The notes below the pieces were generated by a model, which had not been told where the DNA came from, did not search any database, and was given only the letters and a program-made list of their open reading frames with translations. Shown here one piece after another: positions 52,549 through 63,007 of a stretch of 64,000 nucleotides of DNA. The position numbers were made by a program, and so were the translations under genes. Position 1 is the stretch's first letter. Every line of letters begins with the position of its first letter. Source of the DNA: Marinobacter lipolyticus (GTDB lineage: Bacteria; Pseudomonadota; Gammaproteobacteria; Pseudomonadales; Oleiphilaceae); NCBI RefSeq assembly GCF_018424605.1, contig NZ_QTKT01000002.1:1-64000 (forward strand), written 5' to 3'.

Positions 52549-53091
52549 TCAGGAGACAAACACCGCCAGAGCGCCGATACAGCCACCGATCACCGCGCCC
52601 GCGGCCACGTCGCTGGGATAGTGCAGGCCAAGAATGACCCGCGAGGCCGCCACACTCAGGGTGAAGGGCAGAATCGGCCAGAACACTTCCGGTGCCGTCA
52701 ACGCGAGGATGGTGGTAAAGCAGACGGCGTGCAGGGTGTGTCCGGAGGGGAAACTGTAGCGGTCCAGGGGCGGCGTGCCGCAGTTGATGCTCGGGAAGGA
52801 TATAAAGGGCCGTTCGCGGATTAACCAGCGTTTGAGCACTTTGTAGGTGATGGTACAGGTCAGGCCAGTGAAGACCATCAGCAAGGCCAGGGCCAGTCCG
52901 TCTGCGGGGCGCAGCAGTGGCATGGCGAGAATCAGCGCGTACCACAACCAGCCGTCGCCAAGTCGGCTCACCAACTGGAAATAGCCGTGGACCGGGCGAA
53001 ATCGCAGGCTGCGGTTGATCGCCTGACACAGCGCGTATTCCCGCTGGTCCACCAGGTTAAAGAGGCGAGATGCTCTGGTTGTTGATGGCAT
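52549..53091 (-). CDS. PAP2-superfamily membrane phosphatase
   Basis: 180 aa from ATG 53091, overlapping the glycosyltransferase stop by 35 nt. Five or six membrane helices carry the three phosphatase motifs: KRWLIRERP, SFPSGH and SRVILGLHYPSD, with the catalytic His residues in the last two. Family members remove phosphate from lipids such as phosphatidate, PGP or undecaprenyl-PP. Linkage to a GT4 gene under a PHO-type promoter suggests phosphatidate as substrate; this is inference. Confidence 0.88.
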   Translation of the reverse strand: MPSTTRASRLFNLVDQREYALCQAINRSLRFRPVHGYFQLVSRLGDGWLWYALILAMPLLRPADGLALALLMVFTGLTCTITYKVLKRWLIRERPFISFPSINCGTPPLDRYSFPSGHTLHAVCFTTILALTAPEVFWPILPFTLSVAASRVILGLHYPSDVAAGAVIGGCIGALAVFVS

Positions 53092-54277
53092 GGCAGTTGG
53101 CCTTTGTTGGCTGATTGAATACCAGTTGTTCAAACTGCTCGATCTGGCTGGTCCAGTTCAGTTCCAGCGCGTCCAGCCGCGCCTGGATGCGGACGCGGTG
53201 CAGCAGGGAGGGTTGATCCGCCAGGCGCAGCGCGTTGTCCACGAAGGCCTCGTCGTCTTCAAGAGGTGCTTTCATGCCGTTCACTTCCTGGCGGATATGC
53301 TCGCTGGCGGCAGCATCGTCGAAGGCCACCACCGCAAGTCCGCTGGCCATGGCCTCGGTGACCACGTTGCCGAAGGTGTCGGTTTTACTGGGAAACAGGA
53401 ATATATCCCCGGAGGCGTAGTGGCGGGCCAGATCGTCGCCGCGTCGGGTGCCGCAGAAGACGTAATCGGGGTGCCGTTCGGCCAGTTGCCGGCGCAGCGG
53501 GCCGTCGCCTACCAGTATGAACCTCGCCTGGGGGTGAAGACCGCGGATGCGCTCGAAACAGGCCGCTGCCATCTGCAGATTTTTCTCTGACGCCAGCCTG
53601 CCCACGTAAAGCACCGCCCGATCATTACCCGTCAGCCCCCACTGCTGGCGCAGCCCGTCGTCGCGCTTGTGGGGTGTGAAACGATGGCAGTCGACGCCAC
53701 GGCTCCAGAGGCCGGTGGGCTCGATGCCCATCGCGCTGACCACCCGCTGCATTTTCTGCGTCGGCACCAGGGTGATGGCGGTGCGGTTATGGAACCAGCG
53801 GCCGTAGGCGCAGAGCAGTTTTTCCAGCCATCCGGCGCCGTAGTAGCGGCTGTAGGAGTGAAAGTTGGTGTGAAAACCGGAGCACACCGGGATGCCCAGC
53901 CGGCGCGCGGCCGTCACCGCCGCCACGCCAAGTGGCCCCTGTGTGGCCACGTAAATAGCGTCCGGCCTGTGCCGTTTCCAGCGCTTGCTGAGCGAGCCGG
54001 CACCGGCCAGTCCGAATCGGAGGTCAGGGTAGCCGGGCAGCGGCAGGCCGGTGACCACGTGCTCGGCGGAGAACAGCTGGTCGCCGGCCGGGGCACATTG
54101 ACCTGTGCGTTCATGCCGCTGACGCGGGCGGATCACGGTTACCCGGTGGCCCCGCTGCAGTAGGCCCTGGCAGAGGTGTCGCAAGGTGTTGGCCACGCCG
54201 TTGATTTCCGGAGGAAAGGTTTCCGAAACAATGGTAATGTGGCTAGCCTGCCTGACGGCCATGGGTGTCGTGGTCAC
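53057..54277 (-). CDS. GT4-family glycosyltransferase
   Basis: 406 aa from GTG 54277, chosen because AGGAAG lies just upstream and it fits the PHO-type promoter; the open frame beyond is the shadow of the neighbouring gene. N-terminal acceptor domain (SETFPPEINGVANTLRHL), C-terminal donor domain with LYVGRLASEKNLQ, FILVGDGPLRRQLAE and the EX7E region FPSKTDTFGNVVTEAMASG. It is close to lipid glycosyltransferases of the type that glycosylate diacylglycerol or phosphatidylinositol. Co-transcribed with PAP2. Confidence 0.88.
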   Translation of the reverse strand: MTTTPMAVRQASHITIVSETFPPEINGVANTLRHLCQGLLQRGHRVTVIRPRQRHERTGQCAPAGDQLFSAEHVVTGLPLPGYPDLRFGLAGAGSLSKRWKRHRPDAIYVATQGPLGVAAVTAARRLGIPVCSGFHTNFHSYSRYYGAGWLEKLLCAYGRWFHNRTAITLVPTQKMQRVVSAMGIEPTGLWSRGVDCHRFTPHKRDDGLRQQWGLTGNDRAVLYVGRLASEKNLQMAAACFERIRGLHPQARFILVGDGPLRRQLAERHPDYVFCGTRRGDDLARHYASGDIFLFPSKTDTFGNVVTEAMASGLAVVAFDDAAASEHIRQEVNGMKAPLEDDEAFVDNALRLADQPSLLHRVRIQARLDALELNWTSQIEQFEQLVFNQPTKANCHAINNQSISPL

Positions 54278-54310
54278 GGTGCTTCCTGTGTGTCCCTGAG
54301 TCATGCCTCC

Positions 54311-54316
54311 ACTATG
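54311..54316 (-). promoter_or_regulatory. -10 element of the Pho-type promoter for the GT4-PAP2 genes
   Basis: CATAGT on the minus strand (4 of 6 to TATAAT), 10 nt after the last PHO heptamer, the normal spacing when PhoB replaces -35 recognition. The transcript would start near 54305. Confidence 0.5.
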
Positions 54317-54326
54317 GGAAGTTGCT

Positions 54327-54355
54327 GTGACAGTTCTGCGACAGCCCCATGACAA
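54327..54355 (-). promoter_or_regulatory. PHO box: three PhoB half-sites at 11-bp spacing
   Basis: Minus strand: TTGTCAT (54355-54349), CTGTCGC (54344-54338) and CTGTCAC (54333-54327), separated by GGGG and AGAA. The downstream pair matches CTGTCATAWAWCTGTCAY at 15 of 18 positions. The orientation drives the glycosyltransferase gene, not the divergent aldo-keto reductase. Confidence 0.8.
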
Positions 54356-54391
54356 TCTGTTTACCTTTTGACCAGTGCAACCGGAGTTATT

Positions 54392-55429: not shown

Positions 55430-55586
55430 GCTAGAGCGGGTGTATGCAGACGCGCGTGGGCTACGGCGATTTCGCTGGAACCCGCGCGGTGCTTCGCGTC
55501 GCCAGAGGGTGCGTTAACAAAGTGAAACAAGCTTAACTATAAATTGACAAATAAATGTTAAATCAGTGACAAAAAATCGACTTTAT

Positions 55587-58342: not shown

Positions 58343-58800
58343 TGCAAAAACCTGATGTGTTTACCGTTCATTATGTCCTGAAGAACAAGATCGGAGAGCT
58401 TGTCGATACCTCGGAAGGTAGCGAGCCGCTGCATTTCCTGTACGGTAGCCCGGGCATCATCGCCGGCATTCAGGAGGCGGTAAAGGAGCGGAATGTAGGG
58501 GACTGTCTGGAGGTGACCGTACCGCCGTCCATGGCATACGGCGAACACAACCCCGAACTGATCCGCACGGTGCCGAAATCCATGTTCGAGGGCATAGAAA
58601 ACCTCGAAGTTGGCATGAAATTCCAGACCAACACCGGCGACAACGCCCAGATTGTCCAGGTGGTGGGCATCGACGGCAATCTGGTCAAAGTGGATGCCAA
58701 CCATCCGCTGGCGGGGTTCACCCTCTACTTCGACCTGGAGATTGTGGGTAAGCGGGAGGCTACCGAAGAGGAAGTTGCTCAGGGGCGTCCGCTGTATTGA
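58342..58800 (+). CDS. slyD: SlyD-like FKBP-type peptidyl-prolyl isomerase
   Basis: 152 aa, coupled to the CoA-transferase by a 1-nt overlap. FKBP domain split by an insert-in-flap domain: VHYVLKNKIGELVDTSEGSE, AYGEHNPELIRTVPKSMF and DANHPLAGFTLYFDLEIVG. It ends REATEEEVAQGRPLY, lacking the His/Cys-rich metal tail of E. coli SlyD, so the nickel function is probably absent. Its 3' end overlaps the convergent olsA by 41 nt. Confidence 0.9.
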   Translation: MQKPDVFTVHYVLKNKIGELVDTSEGSEPLHFLYGSPGIIAGIQEAVKERNVGDCLEVTVPPSMAYGEHNPELIRTVPKSMFEGIENLEVGMKFQTNTGDNAQIVQVVGIDGNLVKVDANHPLAGFTLYFDLEIVGKREATEEEVAQGRPLY

Positions 58801-59557
58801 GGCGTCGGGCCTGGTAAATCCGTTGCACGCCCGTGGCAACGGTCTCCCGCAGGCCTTCCGCCACATCGTGCCAGCTCTGGTCGGCGGAGACTTTCTGGGG
58901 GGAGTGAAACAGAACGGTCACATCGACCGCCGGGTGTCGCAACATTCGTGGCAGGTGCTGCTGGAATTCGTCGTCACCGGTGAAAGGGGCGAGGTGATCC
59001 GGCTGACCGTTCCGTGTGTAGGCAATGCTGATCGGCTGGATGGCAACGCCCGCATCGGCCGCCGCCTGTAGCAGACGGCCGTGAAATGGCAAAACGGTCA
59101 ATCCGCTGCTGGTGGTGCCCTCCGGGAATACCAGCACGGACTGGCCAGCGGTCAGGGCGCTGGCAATCTCGGCCCTGATTTCGCCGGCCCGGCCGCCGCC
59201 CCGGGTAATGAACAGGGTGCCGGCCTGGCGGGCCAGCCAGCCAATCACCGGCCAGCGGGCCACTTCCGCCTTCGACAGAAATCGCAGGGGCGCGCGCCCG
59301 CCAAGCACCGGGATGTCCGACCAGGACACGTGATTGCTGACAAACAGCACCGGACCCGAGGCCGGCTGGCCTTCAAAACGGGTGCGGAAGCCGAGGCAGC
59401 GACCGGCGTAATCAAAGCAGAAGCGGGCAATCGGCGCCCGATTGATCGATTGTCGGGTGATGAGTTCCAGTGCAAGGCAGGCCGTCGCTATCAGGCCGGT
59501 AATCACCAGAAACCCGCTAAACAGCGCCAGTCGCAGGCCCAAACGCAAATTACCCAT
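58760..59557 (-). CDS. olsA: 1-acyl-glycerol-3-phosphate acyltransferase family protein, probable OlsA
   Basis: 265 aa from ATG 59557 (AGGAG upstream). A membrane helix near residue 10-30 precedes the PlsC fold: NHVSWSD (HX4D catalytic pair) near residue 75, a central TLFITRGGG, and FPEGTTSSG. Placed 51 nt after the olsB-like gene, it probably O-acylates lyso-ornithine lipid; a general PlsC role is the alternative. Confidence 0.8.
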   Translation of the reverse strand: MGNLRLGLRLALFSGFLVITGLIATACLALELITRQSINRAPIARFCFDYAGRCLGFRTRFEGQPASGPVLFVSNHVSWSDIPVLGGRAPLRFLSKAEVARWPVIGWLARQAGTLFITRGGGRAGEIRAEIASALTAGQSVLVFPEGTTSSGLTVLPFHGRLLQAAADAGVAIQPISIAYTRNGQPDHLAPFTGDDEFQQHLPRMLRHPAVDVTVLFHSPQKVSADQSWHDVAEGLRETVATGVQRIYQARRLNTADAPEQLPLR

Positions 59558-59608
59558 AGTTAGTCGCTCCTGATTCAGCAAAACCGGCGGTGTGAAGGCG
59601 GCGGCAAC

Positions 59609-60367
59609 TCAGACGCGGCCCATAAAGTGCCGGCTGTAGCGGGAGGCGAGTCGGCTCACTTCCAGAACCACAAGTACGTCGGCACAACGGAACTCCGGGT
59701 CCCAGCAAGGTTCGCCGCATACCCGCGCACCCAGCCGCATGTAGGCCCGGATCAGCGCCGGGACATCAACCGGCCGGTCCACCGCGACCGGGTGAGCCAG
59801 ATGGGGAAGTTCACGCCGCGGGGTAACGCGAAAGGCCTGATCTGCCATGAATTCGCGCTGAAGGTAGCGGGCGATGTTCCAGGCCTTCAGGCCGCCATCG
59901 GCCATGCTGATGCTGGCGCAGCCGATCAGGTACTGAACGTCGTGTTTCACCAGGTACTCCGCCAGGGTTGCCCATAACAGGGTGATGGTGGCGCCGTTGC
60001 GGTACTCAGGGTGCACGCAGGTTCGTCCCAGTTCGGCGATGTTGCCGCTCAACTGGTAAAAGGCGTCGAGCTCGAACTCCCCCTCGGAATAGAACCCACC
60101 GGTGCGGGCCACCTTATTCTGATGAAGGACCCGTGTGGTTGCGACAAGCGCGCCGGTAGTCTCATCCGTTACCACCAGATGGTCACAGTGGCGGTCAAAG
60201 TTGTCGGCGTCGATGCCGGGCGTGTCAGCGCCGAGATCGGAATCGTACTCCTCGGAGAAAACCCGGTAACGCAAGCGCTGCGCTGCTTCCACGGTTGCCG
60301 GATCGTTGGTGATGCCGGCCTTCAGTTTGCGGGTTGGGCGGGTGGCGGGAACGGATTGTGCGCTCAT
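59609..60367 (-). CDS. olsB: L-ornithine N-alpha-acyltransferase-like protein, probable OlsB
   Basis: 252 aa. Makes lyso-ornithine lipid from ornithine and 3-hydroxyacyl-ACP in characterised members. GNAT-like fold with LRYRVFSEEYDSDLGAD near residue 32, AELGRTCVHPEYRNGATI and YLIGCASISMADGG, the OlsB/hemolysin-like acyltransferase pattern. PHO-type heptamers lie upstream, as known for ornithine-lipid genes of other bacteria. Confidence 0.82.
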   Translation of the reverse strand: MSAQSVPATRPTRKLKAGITNDPATVEAAQRLRYRVFSEEYDSDLGADTPGIDADNFDRHCDHLVVTDETTGALVATTRVLHQNKVARTGGFYSEGEFELDAFYQLSGNIAELGRTCVHPEYRNGATITLLWATLAEYLVKHDVQYLIGCASISMADGGLKAWNIARYLQREFMADQAFRVTPRRELPHLAHPVAVDRPVDVPALIRAYMRLGARVCGEPCWDPEFRCADVLVVLEVSRLASRYSRHFMGRV

Positions 60368-60403: not shown

Positions 60404-60454
60404 ATGAAGCCGGTGTGACAGGGAAATGAACCCGCAATGACGAGTTTATGACAG
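60404..60454 (-). promoter_or_regulatory. PHO box array: five PhoB-like half-sites at 11-bp spacing
   Basis: Minus strand from 60454: CTGTCAT-AAAC-TCGTCAT-TGCG-GGTTCAT-TTCC-CTGTCAC-ACCG-GCTTCAT. The first pair matches the 18-bp PHO consensus at 15 positions, and the third/fourth pair at 12. The array lies 37-87 nt upstream of the olsB start. The -10 could not be placed with confidence. Confidence 0.75.
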
Positions 60455-60615
60455 TCCGTTATCTATTGTGGGGGTTCCCGGCTGTGTCACTGGCTGTAAC
60501 GGCATGCCCGTTCCATGTATATTTCTGAATAGCATGTATAATTGCTGTTACAGCAGGTTGCCTGTATTGTCAGGAATTGAATGCTTCTTCTGAAACCGGA
60601 ATAACAAAATCAGAG

Positions 60616-61353
60616 ATGGACGGCGTGGAACAAACAAACGAAAGTTGGCGAATTCTCATTGTCGAGGATGACGAACGGCTGGCAGAGCTGACGCGGGAAT
60701 ATCTGGAGAGCAACGGCCTGACGGTCACTCTGGAAACCCATGGTGGCCAGGCAGTCGAGCGCATCCGCAACGAGCAGCCTGACCTGGTTGTTCTGGATCT
60801 AATGCTGCCGGGGGAAGATGGCCTGTCTATCTGCCGCCGCGTAAGGCCATTTTATCAGGGGCCGATCATCATGCTGACCGCTCGCACGGACGACCTTGAC
60901 CAGGTGCTGGGGCTAGAGATGGGTGCGGATGATTACATCGGCAAACCGGTCAAGCCCCGGGTGTTGCTGGCCCGCATCCGTGCCATGCTGCGGCGGATCA
61001 CCGAGGGAGCGCAGAACGAAGGCGCCGCGGCCAGCGGGGAAGAGCCGGTCCGGCTGCAGTTCAATGATCTGGTGGTCGATCGGTCCATGCGCGAAGCCTG
61101 GCTGAACGACGACAGCATCGATCTGACCAGCGCCGAATTTGATTTGCTCTGGCTGCTGGCCAGCAACGCCGGGCGGGTGCTGAGCCGTGAAGAAATTTTC
61201 ACGGCCCTGCGGGGTATAGAGTACGACGGACAGGACCGTTCGATCGATGTCCGGGTTTCCCGAATCCGGCCCAAGATTGGTGACGATCCGATCCATCCCC
61301 GGCGCATCAAGACGGTTCGCAGCAAAGGCTACCTTTTTGTAAAAGAAGCCTGA
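60616..61353 (+). CDS. OmpR/RstA-type response regulator
   Basis: 245 aa from ATG 60616; a TTG at 60577 and a GTG at 60625 are other options. Receiver domain with acidic pair VEDDER, phospho-acceptor Asp in VVLDLMLPGEDG and Lys in GKPVKPRVLL; winged helix at the C-terminus with SAEFDLLWLLASNAGRVLSR and a recognition helix ending in RRIKTVRSKGYLF. A TATAAT hexamer at 60537-60542 may be its -10. The sensor kinase follows after 70 nt. Confidence 0.9.
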   Translation: MDGVEQTNESWRILIVEDDERLAELTREYLESNGLTVTLETHGGQAVERIRNEQPDLVVLDLMLPGEDGLSICRRVRPFYQGPIIMLTARTDDLDQVLGLEMGADDYIGKPVKPRVLLARIRAMLRRITEGAQNEGAAASGEEPVRLQFNDLVVDRSMREAWLNDDSIDLTSAEFDLLWLLASNAGRVLSREEIFTALRGIEYDGQDRSIDVRVSRIRPKIGDDPIHPRRIKTVRSKGYLFVKEA

Positions 61354-61423
61354 ACCAACAGCCTCCGGCGCTGGCCTTCCCGTTACCGTGGCGGGGCCGG
61401 CGTTCGTTGCCCGGGTTAATGCA

Positions 61424-63007
61424 ATGCCCCTGAAGTTTTTCCTCAAGCTGTACCTTCGTCTGATCGGTCTCACCTTTTTGGTGCTGCTGCTTTGCGCGGC
61501 GCTATTCACCGGGATCAATTCCGTCCGTCAGCAGTTCTGGCATGAGCGTTACCCTGAACCGCTGATGCGCTGGCTTGCTGCCGCCCCGGCTCCGCTGCAG
61601 CAATATCACTGGTTATCCTCCCTGTACGATTTCCGGGTGTCTCCACCCGATGATCTGGCGTTGTCGTCAGTAGCCCGGGAGCGGCTCAGCTACGGCCAGG
61701 TGGTCGCCCGGGACTCGGCCATCGGGCTGCAGGTTCTGGTGCAGCGCGAAGATGGCGCTATTCTGGACGTGCGCTTGCGGGACCCCTACCGGGATGTGGC
61801 CGAGGCGGTGGCACTGATTGCCCGTTGGCACCTTGATGAAGTTGCCGGGCAACAGGAAGAGCGTCGGGAGCAGGTGAGGAACCGGCTGGAGGCTGCGCTG
61901 CAGGTTTCCTTGTCGCCGGTGCGCGATCCCGACCGCGTGCCTGAGGCGGAAGTGCTTGATCGCGTCTCGGAACGTGGGCTCGCCTGGTACCGCCACAAGA
62001 CGGGCGGGCGTGCCAGCGTGCTGATCCGTCTGCAGGACGGGTCGTTGATCGATCTGTCCCTGCCGCCCCCCTTCCGCAGCTGGGCCTGGCCGGTGGTGTT
62101 ACTGCTGATGGCGGTCAGTGGTGGCGTACTGGCGCTGGCGCTGTATCTCGCCCTGCGGGATGTGGACAGCAATTTGCGGGCGGTAGAGTCGGTGGCCGTG
62201 CGTATCGCCCGCGGAGAAATGGGGGCCCGCGTGGATGCCGGTGACAGCAAACTGGTGTCTCGGCTGGCCGCGGCCTTCAATGGTATGGCCGAGCATATCC
62301 AGCGACTGGTCGGTGTCCAGCGGGAAATGATCCACGCGGTGTCCCACGAGCTCCGAACGCCGGTCGCCCGTATTCGCTTTGGCGTGCAGATGATCGAAAG
62401 TGCCTCCAGCCCGGAAGCCCTGCAGAAGCAGCTGGACGGCATCGACGGAGACATCCAGGAGCTGGACGAACTGATCGATGAAATACTGACCTACGCGCGT
62501 CTGGAGCAGGGTGGCCCGGTGTTTTCTCTGCAGGAAACCTCGGTTACGGATATTGTTCGCCAGGTTGTCGGGGAACAGCAGCTGGTGCGCCCGGCGTTGA
62601 CGATTTCCGCCAATATTGACAGCGAGTCCGAGCGCTGGGGGCTGTCCGACGTCGAGCCCCGTTACCTCCATCGCGCTATCCAGAACCTGGTAGGCAACGC
62701 CGGGCGCTATGCCAACGGCAAGGTGGTCGTGAACTGCCATTTTGATGAGGACAACTGCCGGATTGATGTGGAAGACGATGGCCCCGGCATTCCCGAAGAA
62801 GACTGGGAAAAGGTATTCACTGCGTTTGCCCGGCTCGATGACAGCCGAACCCGCACCTCAGGCGGCTATGGCCTCGGGTTATCCATTGTCCGCCGCATAC
62901 TGTACTGGCATGGTGGTCAGGCATTCGTCAGCCGCAGCGACACCCTCGGTGGTGCGCGTTTCAGTCTGGTGTGGCCCCGCAAGAAGCCGGACGCCGCCAT
63001 AGTGTGA
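61424..63007 (+). CDS. RstB-like sensor histidine kinase
   Basis: 527 aa from ATG 61424. Membrane helix (about 8-28), a periplasmic domain of about 180 residues, a second helix (about 220-245), HAMP, then the phospho-His in HAVSHELRTPVARIR, the ATP lid with NLVGNAGRYANG, DDGPGIPEED and GGYGLGLSIVRRI. Domain plan and H-box fit the RstB group. The inducing signal cannot be read from the sequence. Confidence 0.9.
   Translation: MPLKFFLKLYLRLIGLTFLVLLLCAALFTGINSVRQQFWHERYPEPLMRWLAAAPAPLQQYHWLSSLYDFRVSPPDDLALSSVARERLSYGQVVARDSAIGLQVLVQREDGAILDVRLRDPYRDVAEAVALIARWHLDEVAGQQEERREQVRNRLEAALQVSLSPVRDPDRVPEAEVLDRVSERGLAWYRHKTGGRASVLIRLQDGSLIDLSLPPPFRSWAWPVVLLLMAVSGGVLALALYLALRDVDSNLRAVESVAVRIARGEMGARVDAGDSKLVSRLAAAFNGMAEHIQRLVGVQREMIHAVSHELRTPVARIRFGVQMIESASSPEALQKQLDGIDGDIQELDELIDEILTYARLEQGGPVFSLQETSVTDIVRQVVGEQQLVRPALTISANIDSESERWGLSDVEPRYLHRAIQNLVGNAGRYANGKVVVNCHFDEDNCRIDVEDDGPGIPEEDWEKVFTAFARLDDSRTRTSGGYGLGLSIVRRILYWHGGQAFVSRSDTLGGARFSLVWPRKKPDAAIV

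Follow-up and report, generated by a model that had tools for sequence, protein, structure and literature searches.

A putative Pho-controlled glycolipid operon pairing a glycosyltransferase with a PAP2-family phosphatase in Marinobacter

A 64,000-nucleotide stretch of the Marinobacter lipolyticus genome (positions 1 to 64,000 of contig NZ_QTKT01000002.1; hereafter the window) carries on its minus strand two overlapping genes preceded by a set of PhoB-like repeats. The first (53057..54277) encodes a GT4 glycosyltransferase (GT), probably an Agt2-type diacylglycerol glycosyltransferase; its best start is a GTG codon at 54277, preceded by AGGAAG, and its stop ends at 53057. An alternative ATG further upstream (54304-54302) coincides with the expected transcript start. 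The second gene (52549..53091; ATG at 53091, end at 52549) encodes a PAP2-family membrane lipid-phosphate phosphatase and overlaps the GT gene by 35 bp. A gene for an NADP(H)-dependent aldo-keto reductase is divergent from the GT promoter. As argued below, the two genes very probably form a glycolipid cassette under Pho control.

Upstream of the GT gene, three heptamers, TTGTCAT (54349..54355), CTGTCGC (54338..54344) and CTGTCAC (54327..54333), follow each other on the minus strand at a constant distance of 11 bp, and a 10-nt spacer (54326-54317) separates the third from a -10 element, CATAGT (54311..54316). Of the 18 positions in the familiar Escherichia coli PHO consensus, 15 are matched by the pair CTGTCGCAGAACTGTCAC. 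The same layout, with the -10 element about 10 nt past the last Pho repeat, is found in the E. coli phoA promoter. With at least two TGTC heptamers at 11-bp spacing and a -10 element after 10 nt, the region has the composition of a Pho box promoter, and PhoB itself is encoded in the genome (354.4 bits versus a curated cut-off of 296.2). A preliminary description of the region had placed the two genes at these positions, as one transcription unit behind a PHO-type promoter in which PhoB takes over the -35 contact. Re-reading the sequence confirmed the three heptamers exactly 11 bp apart (54355-54327), CATAGT 10 nt further on and the 15/18 score; the gene overlap agrees with a single transcription unit, and the -35 replacement geometry is supported by the promoter anatomy as well as by its conservation in relatives. 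Judged from these features, the operon is almost certainly under Pho control. Just 5' of the first heptamer lies the sequence GTAAA (54360-54364, minus strand), which is kept in Marinobacter upstream regions and may belong to the promoter of the divergent reductase gene.

The triple pattern YTGTCRY at 11 bp, the degeneracy of which was picked with prior knowledge of the GT promoter site, occurs without mismatch just once in the 3,757,339-base genome, namely at this site. When up to three mismatches were allowed, 15 sites were found, versus 9 for a reversed control pattern; in the window, one triple scoring at least 19/21 was observed versus 0.0 expected from 30 first-order Markov simulations. 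Both overlapping pairs of the GT promoter site are among just 20 places in the genome with at most two mismatches, and pstS has a Pho pair scoring 13/14. The genome-wide search with the two-heptamer pattern was abandoned as a test, being too noisy to judge (280 sites with up to three mismatches versus 210 for the reversed control). The only perfect pair of the genome, CTGTCATCAAACTGTCAC (C2:54956), and a one-mismatch pair (C1:43130) are surrounded by unassigned open reading frames and were of no use as positive controls. An AT-rich stretch at 55522-55583 (minus strand) holds a further Pho-like triple (18/21; 55544-55572), which faces the aldo-keto reductase gene at its 3' end; no gene was recognised behind it and it may be due to chance.

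In order to follow the operon within the genus, 120 Marinobacter genomes were surveyed for GT (E≤1e-60), PAP2 (E≤1e-15) and the gene for the metallophosphoesterase PlcP, plcP (E<1e-100). A heptamer triple significant at p≤0.01 (500 mononucleotide shuffles per upstream region) precedes the GT gene in 96 of the 97 other Marinobacter genomes bearing it, that is, in 64 of 64 in which plcP was detected and in 32 of the 33 in which it was not. The single miss, G085, has a 15/21 triple (p 0.03), and its GT frame contains a stop codon. In 91 of the 97 relatives, CATAGT or a one-mismatch variant of it lies 9–11 nt past the triple. These include G045, which has a 17/21 triple (p 0.004) and CATAGT 10 nt on, although its GT gene lacks the 5' part; the persistence of the Pho box alone is therefore no proof of its use. 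The notion that damage to the GT is accompanied by decay of its promoter was dropped, since the promoter is retained in G045. The first heptamer is kept in relatives, and the second mostly reads TGTCGC, TGTCGT or TGTCCC. Among 34 distinct upstream regions, the identity per column averaged 0.89 for the heptamers, 0.64 for the spacers between them, 0.94 for the -10 element and 0.58 for the 30-nt upstream flank. Entry to this comparison required a triple of at least 17/21 and enough flank (35 of 39 upstream regions passed, four being left out for a weak or ill-placed triple), a selection that favours the heptamers and not the -10 element. Marinobacter species are kin, so that the counts do not represent independent events; the contrast between heptamers and -10 element on the one hand and spacers and flank on the other, being internal to the promoter region, stands despite this kinship.

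The Pfam domains Glyco_transf_4 and Glycos_transf_1 both exceed their cut-offs in the GT, the structure model of which resembles GT4 structures such as MshA, BshA and PimB'. Its closest relatives beyond Marinobacter and near kin are Pseudomonas proteins (50–54% identity). Among 39 Pseudomonas loci, cysZ adjoins the GT gene in all 39, an oppositely oriented OYE-type oxidoreductase gene is found in 36 and a glutathione peroxidase gene in 34, some of the gaps being contig ends, and four Pho-like repeats are present in 37 (p≤0.015). This is a neighbourhood of the PA0838–PA0846 type, seen in Pseudomonas species other than P. aeruginosa; P. aeruginosa itself is absent among the 120 matches listed for the GT query from Aquipseudomonas alcaligenes. 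In P. aeruginosa, PA0838 is described as a glutathione peroxidase (PMC8015003), PA0840 as an oxidoreductase (PMC11656770) and PA0846 as a probable sulfate uptake protein (PMC5720770), and PA0842–PA0847 are drawn as one region with plcR, plcH and cerN as PA0843–PA0845 (PMC5150637). PA0842 is Agt2, which has a Pho box, is four-fold up at low phosphate and alone suffices for glucuronosyl-diacylglycerol formation in E. coli (PMC8528852). Since the neighbourhood is shared according to these papers and the identity to other Pseudomonas proteins is 50–54%, the GT and Agt2 are probably orthologous, which makes the GT very probably a diacylglycerol glycosyltransferase. In a metagenome-assembled genome labelled Deltaproteobacteria (L099), a GT homologue (52%) adjoins a divergent metallophosphoesterase gene, the product of which is 29% identical to the PlcP of M. 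lipolyticus.

The product of the second gene matches Pfam PF01569 with 78.7 bits (cut-off 27.2). The motifs KX6RP, PSGH and SRX5HX3D, the set familiar for the family, are present and invariant across 27 PAP2 sequences, and the predicted fold is that of a helical membrane lipid phosphatase, with LpxE as the top structural match. The genome of M. lipolyticus contains only one other PAP2-family gene.

The preliminary description had also read the GT as a diacylglycerol glycosyltransferase of the phosphate-starvation-induced type, which the probable orthology with Agt2 supports, and had suggested that PAP2, and not PlcP, supplies its diacylglycerol. The search of the genome for plcP that it proposed shows that the latter suggestion does not hold for M. 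lipolyticus: a PlcP-like metallophosphoesterase of 283 aa is encoded on a contig other than that of the GT (C33:354064-354915), behind four 11-bp Pho-like repeats. The suggestion survives in altered form at the level of the genus, where 33 of the 98 GT-bearing genomes are without detected plcP. Pho heptamers precede plcP in all 27 testable loci of the 30 fetched, that of M. lipolyticus included (L141, L158 and L165 fell outside the test).

Among the 120 Marinobacter genomes, GT is present in 98, PAP2 in 100 and plcP in 67, with 8 more showing weak or fragmentary plcP matches. GT and plcP occur together in 65 genomes, GT without plcP in 33, plcP without GT in 2, and neither in 20 (Fisher p 1.2e-6, with no correction for kinship). 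The two genomes with plcP alone (G059 and G107) are assemblies 83% and 82% complete; 30 of the 33 GT-bearing, plcP-less genomes are at least 90% complete. PAP2 accompanies GT in 97 of the 98 genomes (the exception is G047) and is found without it in G060, G069 and, as a partial gene, G040. A quick tree built from 93 intact GT proteins, which reflects the gene and not the species, requires at least 16 changes of plcP status, of which at least 12 are forced by well-supported branches; one nine-genome clade on it is entirely plcP-less. Loss of plcP is indicated by G056, which retains a short plcP-like remnant. As the plcP-less genomes keep the Pho triple (32 of 33), an active operon there would need diacylglycerol from a source other than PlcP, for which PAP2 is the best candidate.

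Beyond the genus, a survey of 369 gammaproteobacterial genomes, including that of M. lipolyticus, detected GT at E≤1e-80 in 42, and 29 of the 41 other matches were examined. PAP2 directly follows GT in 20 of these 29 loci, three have the order GT-plcP-PAP2 (L239, L244 and L252), one has a weak, distant PAP2 match only (L250), and no PAP2 was found at five, in one of which (L256) the contig ends just past the GT gene. Since GT-plcP-PAP2 loci occur, PAP2 and PlcP do not exclude each other; a strict swap, in which GT-PAP2 replaces PlcP, is rejected on the grounds of these loci and of the plcP gene of M. lipolyticus itself. A Pho-like triple (p≤0.01) stands before GT in 14 of the 29 loci. In five loci (L230, L234, L236, L237 and L258), and also in Ectothiorhodospira (L127), the genes run olsB-olsA-GT-PAP2 in one direction. 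No triple was found directly before GT in the five olsBA-led loci among the 29, as is expected if the promoter sits before olsB.

The window contains a second Pho-type promoter (60415..60454, minus strand), in which CTGTCAT, TCGTCAT, GGTTCAT and CTGTCAC follow each other at 11 bp (24/28), with CATAGC 8 nt further on. It precedes, on the same strand, genes for an olsB-like N-acyltransferase (59609..60367) and an olsA-like O-acyltransferase (58760..59581), the products of which have OlsB and OlsA of ornithine-lipid synthesis as their best matches, both below the curated cut-offs. Of the 15 fetched relatives in which olsB lay within range, 14 have a triple before it; the remaining one (L203) has only a partial olsB match. 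Ornithine lipids are probably under the same Pho-type control. GT-PAP2, the olsBA-like genes and plcP share the promoter kind and therefore appear as three putative phosphorus-free-lipid modules with like Pho promoters. Genes for an OmpR-type response regulator and a histidine kinase (60577-63007, plus strand) are divergent from olsB; with 172.6 bits, the regulator stays under the cut-off of the PhoB model.

Taken together, the data suggest the following scheme. At low phosphate, PhoB bound to the three 11-bp repeats would replace the -35 contact and switch on GT and PAP2, as we infer from the anatomy and conservation of the promoter. The Agt2-type GT4 enzyme would glycosylate diacylglycerol, probably with glucuronic acid or glucose, in keeping with its probable Pseudomonas orthologue, and PAP2, the motifs and predicted fold of which are those of an integral-membrane lipid-phosphate phosphatase, would convert phosphatidic acid to diacylglycerol next to the GT. 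Where present, as in M. lipolyticus, PlcP would supply extra diacylglycerol from existing phospholipids, and the putatively Pho-controlled olsBA-like genes would produce ornithine lipids. We regard this explanation, a Pho-controlled operon for phosphorus-free membrane glycolipids in which PAP2 feeds diacylglycerol to an Agt2-type GT, as probable on the whole. Its PAP2 part is plausible: the phosphatase is a candidate diacylglycerol source that we favour somewhat, with phosphatidic acid as its presumed substrate. Only tentatively would we see in the Agt2-PAP2 pair, using newly made phosphatidic acid, the gammaproteobacterial core of the pathway, with PlcP, which serves as marker for lipid renovation, as an optional, repeatedly lost addition.

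Several observations weigh against this scheme. Neither protein has an NCBIfam match over the cut-off (for the GT, among the best 25 of 32 matches). The orthology with PA0842 is built on paper-derived synteny and on identity to proteins of other Pseudomonas species. Damaged GT genes occur in G045, G071 and G085 (loci L199, L208 and L211), all plcP-less, the other 30 of the 33 being intact; some plcP-less genomes may thus be losing the pathway. Split GT frames are seen in the plcP-bearing G036 and G055, where they may be sequencing errors; taken over these five genomes, the defects consist of a missing 5' part, split frames or an in-frame stop. The two UDPG/MGDP-dehydrogenase genes that were found have no Pho triple in fetched stretches of ~3.3 kb (best 13–15/21). 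Moreover, diacylglycerol has other sources, such as periplasmic glucan synthesis. The alternative that survives best is that the operon is a Pho-controlled glycolipid operon in which PAP2 does not feed the GT, and instead serves to recycle undecaprenyl diphosphate, or to free phosphate from other lipid phosphates, with diacylglycerol coming from PlcP or housekeeping reactions. The best NCBIfam match of PAP2 is the undecaprenyl-diphosphatase SepP (NF047884), at 52.2 bits far below the cut-off of 250, several databases label its relatives undecaprenyl-diphosphatase, and the LpxE structure match points the same way, as do the GT-plcP-PAP2 loci and the lack of a PAP2 homologue at all 39 Pseudomonas GT loci (some on short contigs). 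However, the retention of PAP2 in 97 of 98 GT-bearing Marinobacter genomes, its overlap with GT in the window, the absence of detected plcP from a third of those genomes and the presence of just one further PAP2-family gene make this alternative rather unlikely. Less likely still is a phospholipid such as phosphatidylglycerol, or another molecule, as the GT acceptor in place of diacylglycerol: the best NCBIfam match of the GT is indeed N-acetylglucosaminyl-phosphatidylglycerol synthase, far under the cut-off (134 versus 480 bits), and its PDB sequence matches include phosphatidylinositol mannosyltransferases, but control by phosphate starvation disfavours a phosphorus-containing product and the probable Pseudomonas orthologue uses diacylglycerol. 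That the Pho-like repeats arose by chance or form a site for something other than PhoB is highly improbable, for although degenerate pairs are frequent, all support for a Pho site is in silico and the promoter persists before the GT remnant of G045, the exact triple is unique in the genome, heptamers, spacing and -10 element are kept while the flanks drift, and similar repeats precede olsB and plcP.

The Marinobacter operon resembles the PlcP-Agt lipid renovation of Phaeobacter, SAR11, P. aeruginosa and Methylosinus (PMC4796936, PMC8528852, PMC9239053) in its Pho-type promoters, the putative diacylglycerol glycosyltransferase, the plcP gene in the same genome and the ornithine-lipid genes under similar control. 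It differs in that the GT is partnered by PAP2 and that 33 of 98 GT-bearing genomes are without detected plcP; a plcP gene beside that for the GT is common, if not universal, in those systems, whereas here PAP2 adjoins the GT. PlcP is the phospholipase commonly regarded as the starting point of this process, and maps of oceanic lipid renovation have been drawn from its abundance (PMC4796936); if GT-PAP2 works without PlcP, plcP-based surveys would overlook lineages such as those 33 genomes. With Agt2 of P. aeruginosa, its probable orthologue, for which induction at low phosphate has been shown (PMC8528852), the GT shares synteny and a Pho box, and it is 50–54% identical to the homologues of other Pseudomonas species; in contrast to the Marinobacter locus, no PAP2 gene adjoins GT in the 39 Pseudomonas loci, and the Marinobacter product is a predicted one. 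A plcP mutant of P. aeruginosa still made some glucuronosyl lipid, which its authors ascribed to an alternative diacylglycerol supply (PMC8528852). PAP2 suggests what type of source this could be, although in P. aeruginosa it would have to be encoded elsewhere, and the existence of Marinobacter species that have plcP and of others that lack it opens the question to a direct test. The PAP2 protein shares its fold and catalytic motifs with the membrane phosphatases LpxE and PgpB (PDB 6ebu and 5jki), at 22–25% identity in structural alignments, too low for a transfer of substrate. The phosphatidic acid phosphatases Lpp-alpha and Lpp-beta of Streptomyces coelicolor (PMC3599759) supply diacylglycerol to a later enzyme, as is proposed here for PAP2; they feed triacylglycerol synthesis, however, and the abstract does not mention control by phosphate starvation. 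A literature search of partial coverage (titles and abstract openings) found, among the records listed, no description of PAP2 as the partner of a diacylglycerol glycosyltransferase under Pho control, nor of repeated plcP absence. The type of pathway is already known; within the scope of that search, the partnership with PAP2 and the recurrent absence of plcP are its new elements.
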